A stretch of 64,000 nucleotides of DNA from Pseudomonadota bacterium (GTDB lineage: Bacteria > Desulfobacterota > Binatia > Binatales > Binataceae): NCBI GenBank assembly GCA_021324455.1, contig JAJPJA010000119.1:1-64000 (forward strand), in the 5' to 3' direction. The notes below the pieces were generated by a model. It was not told the DNA's origin. It made no database searches and saw only the letters and a list, made by a program, of their open reading frames with translations. This document shows, piece after piece, positions 1 through 4,385 of the stretch. Made by a program: the position numbers and the translations under genes. Every line of letters begins with the position of its first letter. Position 1 is the first letter of the stretch.

Positions 1-969
1 GGCTTCAAGGCCGGGGCCGGCGATCGAGGCCAAAAAGCGGACGTTGACCGGATATTCGCGGTGCGGGCCGGCGGGCCGCACGGTCTTTTCGCGGATAACG
101 CGCAGCAGTTCAGCTTGCAATGGCGGCTCCAGCGCGGCGGCCTCCTGGATGAAAACGCTCCCGTCCTCGGCGGCGCGAAGCAGACCGAGGTAATCGGCCG
201 CGGCACCGTTTTGAGCGCCGCGCGTGAAACCGAACAGTTCGCCTGCAATCAGATCGGGCGGTACGGCGGCGCAGTTGATGGCGGCAAATGGGCCAGCCCG
301 GGCCGCGCTGATTTCGTGAATCGCACGGGCGACCTGCTCTCTGCCGGTGCCAGGCTCGCCGACGATCAGAACCGGGTCGTGCCGCGCGCCAGCGGCCTGG
401 ATTTGCGCGTAAACCCGCCGCATCGCCCGGCTGGCGCCCACCAGACCGTGGAAGCGGCTGCGGCTATCGTTGCCGAGCCGGGCCGCTTCGCGTTCGAGGG
501 CCGCGATGCGTTCGCCGGCCGCGGCGGAATGCGATCGGAAATAGGCGCTGACCAGCAGTATGATGCGCACGTGGCTGAGCTTGTCGAAGCTGGTGTAGAT
601 GCGCGTGGGTGCGCCGGATGGGAACACGGTGTAGACGCTTTCCTCGAACAGATGAAGCGATGCGATGATTTCCTCCAGCGGCACCCGCCGTTGCGCCAGC
701 AGTTCGCCCATGCGCATCACCTGGGCGGCGTAGGCGTCCAGGTCGCCTTGGAGCAGGGCGCGCTTGTTGCGGCGCAGGGCGGGCTCGAAAATGCGTATGA
801 ATTCGGACTCGGACAGGCTGCGCGCGTCGCCGAAATGGAGCACGTAGAGCCGGTACCAATGCCGAACTATTTCTTCGCTGCGTTCAAAGATGAGCTTGAA
901 GATCCCGCGCAGCTGGTCGATATCTTCATCCCAAAGCAGATGAAAGTGCCGCGGAGTTGCCGTTTGCAT
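1..969 (-). CDS. Degenerate sigma-54-activator-like regulator, partial (C-terminus beyond window)
   Basis: The first 323 residues are visible; the gene runs off the left edge. Residues 1-145 form an all-helical region resembling RsbRD-type or histidine-kinase N-terminal sensor domains. Residues about 175-323 are the start of a sigma-54 AAA+ domain of the NtrC type. The AAA+ motifs are eroded. Walker A reads GEPGTGRE (204-211, Arg for the catalytic Lys). The sigma-54-contact loop GAFTGA is GAQNGA (251-256). Walker B is VFIQE (272-276, Gln for Asp). Such a protein is unlikely to hydrolyse ATP or remodel sigma-54 holoenzyme normally, so it may be a dominant-negative or purely sensory derivative. 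The start is the ATG at 969, the first in frame. AT-rich direct repeats lie about 80-110 bp upstream. The family is clear; the function is inference. Confidence 0.8.
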   Translation of the reverse strand, partial: MQTATPRHFHLLWDEDIDQLRGIFKLIFERSEEIVRHWYRLYVLHFGDARSLSESEFIRIFEPALRRNKRALLQGDLDAYAAQVMRMGELLAQRRVPLEEIIASLHLFEESVYTVFPSGAPTRIYTSFDKLSHVRIILLVSAYFRSHSAAAGERIAALEREAARLGNDSRSRFHGLVGASRAMRRVYAQIQAAGARHDPVLIVGEPGTGREQVARAIHEISAARAGPFAAINCAAVPPDLIAGELFGFTRGAQNGAAADYLGLLRAAEDGSVFIQEAAALEPPLQAELLRVIREKTVRPAGPHREYPVNVRFLASIAGPGLEA

Positions 970-1051
970 GGACCTGACGTTACCGCCGCCTGGAAGCTGT
1001 TTTGTCACCTATCGCGCGATTTGCGGTCAAGCGCAAGTGCGGCCGCCCTCC

Positions 1052-1080
1052 AAAACATTCTGAATGAAACTAAAACATTC
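1052..1080. repeat. Direct repeat AAAACATTC x2, 20 bp apart, upstream of the regulator gene
   Basis: AAAACATTC occurs at 1052-1060 and 1072-1080, a phase of two helical turns. The first copy continues into the palindrome CATTCTGAATG (1056-1066). The block is AT-rich within GC-rich surroundings and lies in the only spacer upstream of the reverse-strand gene that starts at 969. It is a plausible promoter or operator, possibly autoregulatory. No cognate regulator is identified. Confidence 0.4.
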
Positions 1081-1130
1081 AGTAGCTGAGGTCGATGCCC
1101 CCGCGCGCGACGGCGCGGCGCTCTGGGCCC

Positions 1131-1916
1131 TCAGCCGCGGAAGCGCGGAGCGCGTTTTTCCACGAATGCGGCGATACCTTCGCGCGCCTCGGCGCCGCCC
1201 GCGCGCGCCGCAATCGTGCGCGCCTCGGCCTGCAGGTGGGTTTCGAGCGTATCGTTGAAGCTGTCGCGCAGCAGGCGCTTGGCGGCGCCCAGGGCCGAGG
1301 TCGCGCCGTCGGCCATCTCACGGGCCAGCGCCTGCGCGGCGGATTGAAGGTCATCGTCGGGCACCACGCGGTTTACGATGCCCCATTCCTGGGCCTCGGC
1401 CGCGGACAGCACCCGGTTGGCAAGAGTGAGTTCCAGCGCGCGGCGCAATCCCACCAGCCGGGGCAGAAAAAAACTGGTCGAGGCGTCGGGCGAGAGCGCG
1501 GCGCGCGTATAGGCCATGGTCAGGCGGGCGGATTGAGCGGCGATAACCAGGTCGGCGCCGAAGACCAGGCCCAATCCGCCGCCGGCGGCGGTGCCGTTAA
1601 CCGCGGTGATCACCGGCGGATCCATCCTGGCCATCAGCGAGACCGCGCCATGGATGTAGTGGGTCAGGAGTTTCAGATGCGCGGACAGGTCGTCTTTGTG
1701 CGCGGCGAAGGTCTTGAGATCGCCGCCGGCACAAAACATCTTGCCGTTGGCGGTTACCAATACGGCGCGGGCCGCGGGGTCCTCGTCGCATCGCAGCATC
1801 GCGTCGTAGAGTTCCTGCGCCAATTCCAGATTGATGGCGTTGGCGGCGTCGGGCCGGTTCAGCGTCAGATGCGCGACGCCCTCGCGCAATTCGAACAGGA
1901 TCGTCTTATACTCCAT
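1131..1916 (-). CDS. Enoyl-CoA hydratase/isomerase family protein
   Basis: A crotonase-fold protein of 261 residues, the usual family length. It should act on acyl-CoA thioesters in the cytoplasm. Visible signatures are FCAGGDL (61-67) and the oxyanion-hole region NGTAAGGGLGL (107-117). At the second acid position it has SPDAS (Asp144) rather than the Glu of classical hydratases. Asp here is typical of PaaG-like isomerases, so isomerisation or ring-epoxide chemistry is as likely as hydration. I chose the ATG at 1916 because GGAGGA lies just upstream and the crotonase domain begins there; an earlier in-frame start adds 15 poorly conserved residues. The gene is co-directional with the downstream degenerate regulator but separated by a 161-bp promoter-like spacer. 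Confidence 0.88.
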   Translation of the reverse strand: MEYKTILFELREGVAHLTLNRPDAANAINLELAQELYDAMLRCDEDPAARAVLVTANGKMFCAGGDLKTFAAHKDDLSAHLKLLTHYIHGAVSLMARMDPPVITAVNGTAAGGGLGLVFGADLVIAAQSARLTMAYTRAALSPDASTSFFLPRLVGLRRALELTLANRVLSAAEAQEWGIVNRVVPDDDLQSAAQALAREMADGATSALGAAKRLLRDSFNDTLETHLQAEARTIAARAGGAEAREGIAAFVEKRAPRFRG

Positions 1917-2020
1917 ACATCCTCCGCAGTCGGTGGTCGTCCGAACTTTAGCGCCCCGCACCGGCGGCGGCTATAAAGCCCGATCGGCTTCCGGAAAGGC
2001 CGGGAGCATCCGCCCTCGAT

Positions 2021-2618: not shown

Positions 2619-4385
2619 TCAGCCCACGGCGAAGTTCAACTGCTGCGCGCCGCCCGCGCTCCCCGCGGCAATCCGCCGCAGCTCATTGATATCCAACGGT
2701 TTGGACAGCACGCCCGCGATGTCCACCGCGGCCGGAATCCGGTCCTCGGCCTCGCTGCCCCATCCGGTCAGGATGTAGAAGGCGGCGGCGGGCGCGAAAT
2801 GGCGGGCGGCAGCCGCCACTTCCCATCCATTCATCCCGGGCATTCCCAGGTCGCACAGGATGATGTCGTAGGGTGGTCCGGATTTCATTCTACCCACCGC
2901 TTCCTGTCCCGAATGAACGCTGTCGACCTGATGGCCATCGCGGACCAGCACTTCCGCCAGCGATTCGAGGCTCTCCGCGTTGTCGTCGATGATCAGGAAA
3001 CGGCGGCCCGGGCGCGCGGTGAAGGGCGTATGCGCGTGGCCGCTATGACGGGCCGGATCGGCAAGCGGGAAGCGGAGAACGAATACCGCCCCGCCTTCGG
3101 CGCGGTTGGCGGCGCTGATATTGCCGCCGAAGCTTTCCATTACTTCACGCGCGGTCGAAAGTCCCAGCCCGCTGCCGTGCGGTCCCTTGGTGGTATAGAA
3201 CGGCTCGAAAATCCGTGCGATGTGTTCCTGGGGGATGCCGCTGCCGTTGTCGGACACGCGGATGATGACGGCGCTGTCTTCCACCGTGGAATCGATCCGG
3301 ATTTCACCCTGTTGACCGAGCGCGTCGGCGGCGTTGAGCAACAGATTGAGCAAGACCTGGCGCAGGTCGGCGGCTGTGCCGGTAATCGGCGGCAAACGCA
3401 TCGGGAGTTCGGACGTGATTCTGATGTCGGCGCCCATCAGAGCGGGTCTTCCCTCGATACTGCTGCGGGCAAGCTCGATGGCCTGGGCCACGACCTCATG
3501 CAGCTGGACCGGTTCCTCGCCGCGGAGGTTGCGGGTTTGCCCCAGTTCGCGCACCCGCGCCACGGTGCGGGCGGCGTCTTCCAGCGCGCGCTCCACCGCC
3601 TGCAGGCGCGCGTGATGACGGCTGTCGACCATCTCGTCTTCGAAAAGCGCGCTCAGACGGAGTCTGAGAATGTTGAGGGTATTGTTGAGGTCATGCGCCA
3701 TCCCGGAGGCGAGCTGACCGGCGAGGCGCAGCCGCTCCTGCAACAACAGTTGCTCGCGTCCCTTGAGAACTTCGGCCTCCGCATGACGACGGGCGCGCCG
3801 CAGCCGCCGCTCCAAGGCGGTGGTGAGCAGGCCGATTGCGGCGGCGATCAGCAAGCCGAGCACGTCGTAAGGATCGAAAGCGCTATGCGGCAGCAGGGAA
3901 AGCGCGACGCCGAAGGCGGCCGCGGCAATCACACAGAGCAACGTTTGGATTTTCTCGCCCCACGACAGGAATGGCCCGGTGCCGGCCAGAAACAGCATCA
4001 GGGCAATAAAAAACGGCTGTGTCTGTCCGGTCATCACGGCGATCGCGGTGCAGGTGGCGATCATCACGGCGCTGAAGGCGAACGCCACCGCTTTCCAGTG
4101 CAGCTTCATCCAGGGACCGACTTTCACGGTCATCAGGACCGCGGCGCCGAACAGGCCGATATTGATCGAATGGAGGATCAGAACCCAGGGATAATGCAGC
4201 GACAGAAACGGTCTATCGAGTACCAGGTATGCAACCTGGTAAAGCAATGTGAGGAGGGAACCGGCGCCGACCAGCCGCGCGGCCCATTTCGCCTCCGCCG
4301 AAGCGGCGAACTCGGCCTCGACGCCGATCTCCCCGCGGTTCGCCGTGCGCAGTTCCTGATTGGTTTTTTTAAAGCCGAATCGCAA
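2619..4385 (-). CDS. Membrane hybrid histidine kinase with C-terminal receiver domain
   Basis: A 588-residue sensor kinase. Residues about 38-190 hold six hydrophobic membrane segments with only short loops, suggesting a membrane-embedded sensor. A coiled linker leads to the dimerisation box AHDLNN (His231). The ATPase domain follows with the N-box NLLLNAADA, the G1 box DNGSGIP, the F-box FEPFYTTK and the G2 box GSGLGLS. A fused receiver (about 462-575) has the acidic pair in LIIDDN, phospho-acceptor Asp512 in CDLGMPG and the Lys of SKPLD. No HPt or DNA-binding output domain is fused, and no partner response regulator is adjacent. The start is uncertain: the TTG at 4385 is the upstream limit, and no good ribosome site was found. 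The signal is unknown. Confidence 0.88.
   Translation of the reverse strand: MRFGFKKTNQELRTANRGEIGVEAEFAASAEAKWAARLVGAGSLLTLLYQVAYLVLDRPFLSLHYPWVLILHSINIGLFGAAVLMTVKVGPWMKLHWKAVAFAFSAVMIATCTAIAVMTGQTQPFFIALMLFLAGTGPFLSWGEKIQTLLCVIAAAAFGVALSLLPHSAFDPYDVLGLLIAAAIGLLTTALERRLRRARRHAEAEVLKGREQLLLQERLRLAGQLASGMAHDLNNTLNILRLRLSALFEDEMVDSRHHARLQAVERALEDAARTVARVRELGQTRNLRGEEPVQLHEVVAQAIELARSSIEGRPALMGADIRITSELPMRLPPITGTAADLRQVLLNLLLNAADALGQQGEIRIDSTVEDSAVIIRVSDNGSGIPQEHIARIFEPFYTTKGPHGSGLGLSTAREVMESFGGNISAANRAEGGAVFVLRFPLADPARHSGHAHTPFTARPGRRFLIIDDNAESLESLAEVLVRDGHQVDSVHSGQEAVGRMKSGPPYDIILCDLGMPGMNGWEVAAAARHFAPAAAFYILTGWGSEAEDRIPAAVDIAGVLSKPLDINELRRIAAGSAGGAQQLNFAVG

Follow-up and report, generated by a model that had tools for sequence, protein, structure and literature searches.

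The protein encoded at the left end of the analysed stretch is probably a sigma-54-independent, non-ATPase DNA-binding regulator that derives from a globin-sensor bEBP and uses its AAA+ domain as a scaffold. This stretch of 64,000 nucleotides (the window; G000:C97:1-64000) is the left end of contig C97, which has 67,341 bases in an assembly of 5.28 Mb and 161 contigs. It contains the 5' two thirds of the bEBP gene on the minus strand (1..1008), and the contig end cuts the gene at base 1. The gene starts at ATG 969 (323 codons) or GTG 1008 (336 codons), its frame has no stop between the start and base 1, and the coding composition is normal, with GC of 0.71, 0.47, and 0.76 by codon position. 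The degenerate AAA+ sigma-54 interaction domain lies at 25..444 on the minus strand and matches PF00158 with 130 bits over profile positions 1-140 of 168.

A sigma-54-dependent bEBP is expected to have a PF00158 AAA+ domain, a sigma-54-contacting GAFTGA loop, and an intact Walker A Lys, Walker B Asp, sensor I Asn, and arginine fingers. The window protein has the first (8.7e-38) and has lost all of the others. The Walker A remnant is GEPGTGRE (337..360), where Lys is replaced by Arg; the L1 loop remnant is GAQNGA (202..219) instead of GAFTGA or GAFSGA, and relative to GAFTGA it carries F to Q and T to N substitutions; the Walker B remnant is GSVFIQEA (139..162), where Asp is replaced by Gln and the Glu is kept (FIQEA); and the sensor I remnant is SIA (19..27) instead of STN. 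All four remnants are on the minus strand and were read from the sequence. The Walker A, Walker B, and GAFTGA changes given in the preliminary description are thus all real, and the losses of the sensor I Asn and of the arginine fingers are additional to them; the arginine-finger segment, which lies on contig C3, reads LNSALLKAL, compared to LRxDLYYRL in canonical bEBPs. The codons at the changed residues are AGA, CAA, AAC, CAG, ATC, and GCC, and at least three base changes are needed for F to Q, two for D to Q, and two for N to A. Because several codons are replaced at more than one base while the frame stays intact, sequencing error is ruled out as the source of the motif changes. A frameshift that masks canonical motifs is also ruled out, as none of these motifs is found in the other two frames of the minus strand.

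To find the missing C-terminus, we searched the genome with the C-terminal portion of L027, the nearest relative. The search returned one orphan fragment of 164 codons at the extreme end of contig C3, which is open in frame at the contig edge and breaks at the matching alignment position. A direct join of C97 and C3 gives 500 codons and is one residue shorter than the nearest relative at the junction, and the genome has only one orphan N-terminal fragment of the globin-bEBP family. The single orphan fragment on each side, the open C3 frame, and the size of the joined product therefore make the join very likely. Judging from the frame, the alignment position, and the absence of other orphan fragments, the C3 open reading frame is almost certainly the C-terminus of the window gene. 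It contains AAA_lid_14 (4.1e-22) and a Fis-type HTH_8 (1.4e-14), so the HTH that the preliminary description proposed to look for in the rest of the gene is found, through an inferred join. Given this join, the protein has the features of a GAFTGA-less bEBP, namely bEBP homology, loss of GAFTGA, and a retained HTH.

The N-terminal part of the protein is an all-helical globin-like sensor (466..954, minus strand), which matches Pfam Protoglobin at 7.2e-5 with 23.3 bits, under the cut-off of 25. The family profile of the sensor matches the stressosome protein RsbR (PDB 7o0i, E 0.00096). The top Foldseek matches are globin-coupled sensor folds, at E 0.07 or worse and from a low-confidence single-sequence model, the AAA+ part of which has a pLDDT mostly below 50 and is unusable. 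In the profile alignment to 7o0i, the His of RsbR GEIHARVG, which we take to be the haem ligand, faces Leu in the family consensus. Haem binding by the window-protein sensor is therefore doubtful, and haem sensing is unsupported, since the other His columns of the sensor family are common, not invariant. Haem-binding Vibrio RsbR keeps the proximal His, and Bacillus RsbR proteins are non-haem globins (PMC4976288). The N-terminal domains of the RsbR stressosome globin sensors (PDB 7o0i; PMC4976288) appear related to that of the window protein by profile and fold, whereas the output of RsbR is a STAS domain and that of the window protein is AAA+ plus HTH.

Of the 148 genomes that we searched in the class, 41 contain related sensors, and most of these belong to the window's own family. 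We read about 55 full-length members beyond the window protein, and the great majority of them are canonical, including L027 (59% identity); the loop in canonical relatives is GAFSGA, GAFTGA, GSFSGA, or GSFTGA. The window's genome encodes sigma-54 and two canonical globin-bEBP paralogues, L058 and L059. Canonical globin-sensor bEBPs from this bacterial family, such as L027, L058, and L059, have the same domain order as the window protein, 50-59% identity to it, and a near-identical recognition helix, but they keep GESGTGKE, GAFSGA, LDE, STN, and RxDLYYR, which the window protein does not. Nine proteins are degenerate, namely that of the window gene and L062, L050, L065, L072, L070, L077, L076, and L067. 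Every one of them is without GAFTGA and the sensor I Asn, but they differ in whether Walker A, Walker B, and the arginine fingers are lost. In L067, GAFTGA and the sensor I Asn are the only losses, and the Walker A, Walker B, and arginine-finger motifs are kept. This points to, without proving, an order in which sigma-54 contact is lost first and erosion of the ATPase follows. The L076 frame stops short of the HTH, no HTH is seen in the other two frames, and L076 may be a pseudogene.

We computed trees without the motif columns, and on these trees the nine degenerate members require four changes of state. In the 65-row tree, the neighbour with the best support for the window protein is canonical (97/86; 86/84 in a second analysis), and the branch of the window protein is about 1.5 times that of L027 (0.93 vs 0.65). 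In AU tests, which were run on a set other than the 65-row tree, a single dead clade of all nine is rejected (p 0.0005), but the test does not reject a smaller one made up of the window gene, L067, L070, L077, and L076 (p 0.315). These results support at least two independent losses, and a separate loss in the window gene is possible but not required.

Each of three other degenerate lineages occupies a shared locus in two or three species. L065 and L072, from two congeners, adjoin a ctaA/UbiA-type prenyltransferase/COX3/COX4 cluster (L110:5289-6743, minus strand; L111:5111-6739, plus strand), and these degenerate globin-bEBPs at the cytochrome oxidase cluster are 61% identical, compared to 78-91% for the flanking genes. 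The protein at this cluster could be a respiratory regulator. L062 and L050 adjoin DUF2267. L077, L076, and L067 adjoin a CheB-CheR-PAS kinase with a LuxR-type response regulator in a matching position in each of the three genomes (G001:C39, G002:C26, and G010:C84; L107, L108, and L109), across two genera; the bEBP at this locus in G002 is the one without an HTH. The pairwise dN/dS values of the degenerate pairs are 0.23, 0.25, and 0.39, compared to 0.05-0.18 for live pairs, and those of the HTH in the three degenerate pairs are 0.23, 0.08, and 0.18, indicating constraint. The shared loci, the dN/dS values of at most 0.39, and the constrained HTH indicate that these degenerate lineages are under purifying selection and are kept with relaxed AAA+ domains.

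No same-locus orthologue of the window bEBP is found in two congeners, so the evidence for the window copy is internal to the gene and comes from residue retention; compared to the nearest relative, its synonymous sites are near saturation (pS 0.64). The window protein keeps 24 of the 26 conserved residues in the sensor and 20 of the 22 in the HTH (together 44/48), the latter count depending on the inferred C3 join, compared to 94 of 138 in the AAA+ domain (Fisher p 0.001), whereas in live relatives the retained share of conserved AAA+ residues is 87% or more. The comparison for the HTH alone is weaker (p 0.04), and the p values are uncorrected across eight such tests. The loss in the window gene thus appears confined to the AAA+ domain, and the earlier view that an N-terminal sensor-like domain is kept is supported.

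It is unlikely that this single copy is a canonical activator that has recently become, or is now becoming, a pseudogene. The canonical nearest relatives and the long branch of the window protein would fit pseudogenisation, as would the private variants and the congeners with no bEBP at the locus. However, about 500 codons are open with a normal composition by codon position, the loss is concentrated in the AAA+ domain, a three-base change from F to Q occurred with no stop or frameshift elsewhere, and parallel degenerate lineages are kept. The preliminary description argued from the open frame that this is not random decay; the open frame and the confinement of the loss agree with that, although pseudogenisation of this copy is still conceivable. 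It also took canonical orthologues as a sign of sequencing error or recent pseudogenisation and proposed to look for conservation of the R/Q/GAQNGA variants. That conservation is not seen, as the exact set is absent from all relatives found and is private to the window protein. Canonical nearest relatives do not overturn the reading here, because degenerate members recur under purifying selection and the loss in the window gene is confined to the AAA+ domain. Of the non-ATPase DNA-binding or partner-binding regulators suggested in the preliminary description, the DNA-binding one is the best reading, since the motifs are lost, the sensor is kept, and an HTH lies on the almost certain continuation of the gene. 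The private variant set, the canonical best-supported neighbour, the lack of a same-locus orthologue in the congeners, and the split of the gene over two contigs count against it.

Several bEBPs without GAFTGA act at sigma-70 promoters, including TyrR, DhaR, and HupR (PMC3162934) and the NtrC proteins of Caulobacter and Rhodobacter capsulatus (PMC10274813), and the comparison group also counts VpsR (group sources PMC3162934 and PMC10274813). These proteins and the window protein alike have bEBP architecture, a Fis-type HTH, and a lost sigma-54-contact loop, but the window protein additionally lacks the Walker A Lys, the Walker B Asp, the sensor I Asn, and the arginine fingers. Its sensor is also globin-like, whereas that of the NtrC proteins is a receiver domain. 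Rhodobacter capsulatus NtrC is reported to need ATP binding but not hydrolysis, and Caulobacter NtrC, which has no GAFTGA, has the Walker Lys and Asp, which are required for growth on ammonium (PMC10274813). By analogy with Rhodobacter capsulatus NtrC, ATP or another nucleotide might still bind to the window protein as a structural switch without hydrolysis, and the retained P-loop glycines, Walker B Glu, and sensor II motif (WPGHVREL) would be consistent with this. We consider it very improbable, because the window protein has neither the Walker A Lys nor the Walker B Asp, both of which are present in Caulobacter NtrC. As a sigma-54-independent scaffold regulator, the window protein probably would not hydrolyse ATP and would bind it poorly if at all, and contact of its AAA+ domain with sigma-54 would be gone. 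The most likely remaining role of the AAA+ domain is that of a dimerisation or oligomerisation scaffold that links the globin-like sensor to the Fis-type HTH. A signal bound at the sensor would alter assembly or DNA binding, and the protein would repress or activate sigma-70-type promoters according to its position, with no ATP-driven remodelling.

The near-identical recognition helix makes competition with the live paralogues a serious rival to this scaffold reading, although a less probable one. The window protein would then bind the enhancer sites of the intact globin-bEBP paralogues, or join their hexamers, as an anti-activator at sigma-54 promoters. Its recognition-helix region, ISRKRLYARI, differs from the ISRKKLYAKI of most live paralogues by Lys/Arg swaps only, ISRKKLY is exact in the seven other degenerate members that have an HTH, and L058, L059, and sigma-54 are all available in the genome. 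However, the likeness of the HTH may reflect only common descent, and no live paralogue adjoins the window gene. The upstream neighbour on the same strand is an enoyl-CoA hydratase gene (1131..1961, minus strand; ECH_1 2e-59), the orthologues of which are about 80% identical in both congeners, with no bEBP beside either. A perfect inverted repeat, CTGAATG-N9-CATTCAG (1060..1082), lies between the two genes as a putative operator, but no second copy with up to one mismatch is found in the genome, so a shared operator is rejected and no shared site for a competitor is evident. By a rough estimate, a 7-base inverted repeat would arise there by chance with a probability of about 0.1, and the repeat is therefore not evidence of an operator.

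More broadly, and tentatively, the family may repeatedly give rise to ATPase-dead derivatives of globin-sensor sigma-54 activators, in which the sensor and the recognition helix are preserved and which are held at fixed loci, such as the cytochrome oxidase and CheB/CheR-kinase clusters, as signal-gated competitors or sigma-70 regulators. If so, the window gene would be the most eroded example, without the Walker A Lys, Walker B Asp, sensor I Asn, arginine fingers, and GAFTGA loop. GAFTGA-less bEBPs are known one by one, and here several independent losses could be compared within one protein family, in a depth series from L067, with GAFTGA and the sensor I Asn lost, to the window protein, with all key motifs lost. 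Such a series would let one ask what function an AAA+ domain retains after losing ATP hydrolysis and sigma-54 contact. Automatic annotation as a sigma-54-dependent regulator would mislabel about one in six or seven proteins in the group.

The same genome contains a second kind of degenerate bEBP of 357 aa (L098:3545-4615, plus strand; G000:C136, about 17.5-18.6 kb), in which no N-terminal sensor domain is seen, GAFTGA is absent, the Walker B region reads FFAHIE, and HTH_8 is present. The window also encodes a hybrid protein at 2619-4385 on the minus strand, with HisKA and HATPase_c followed by a response-regulator receiver domain.
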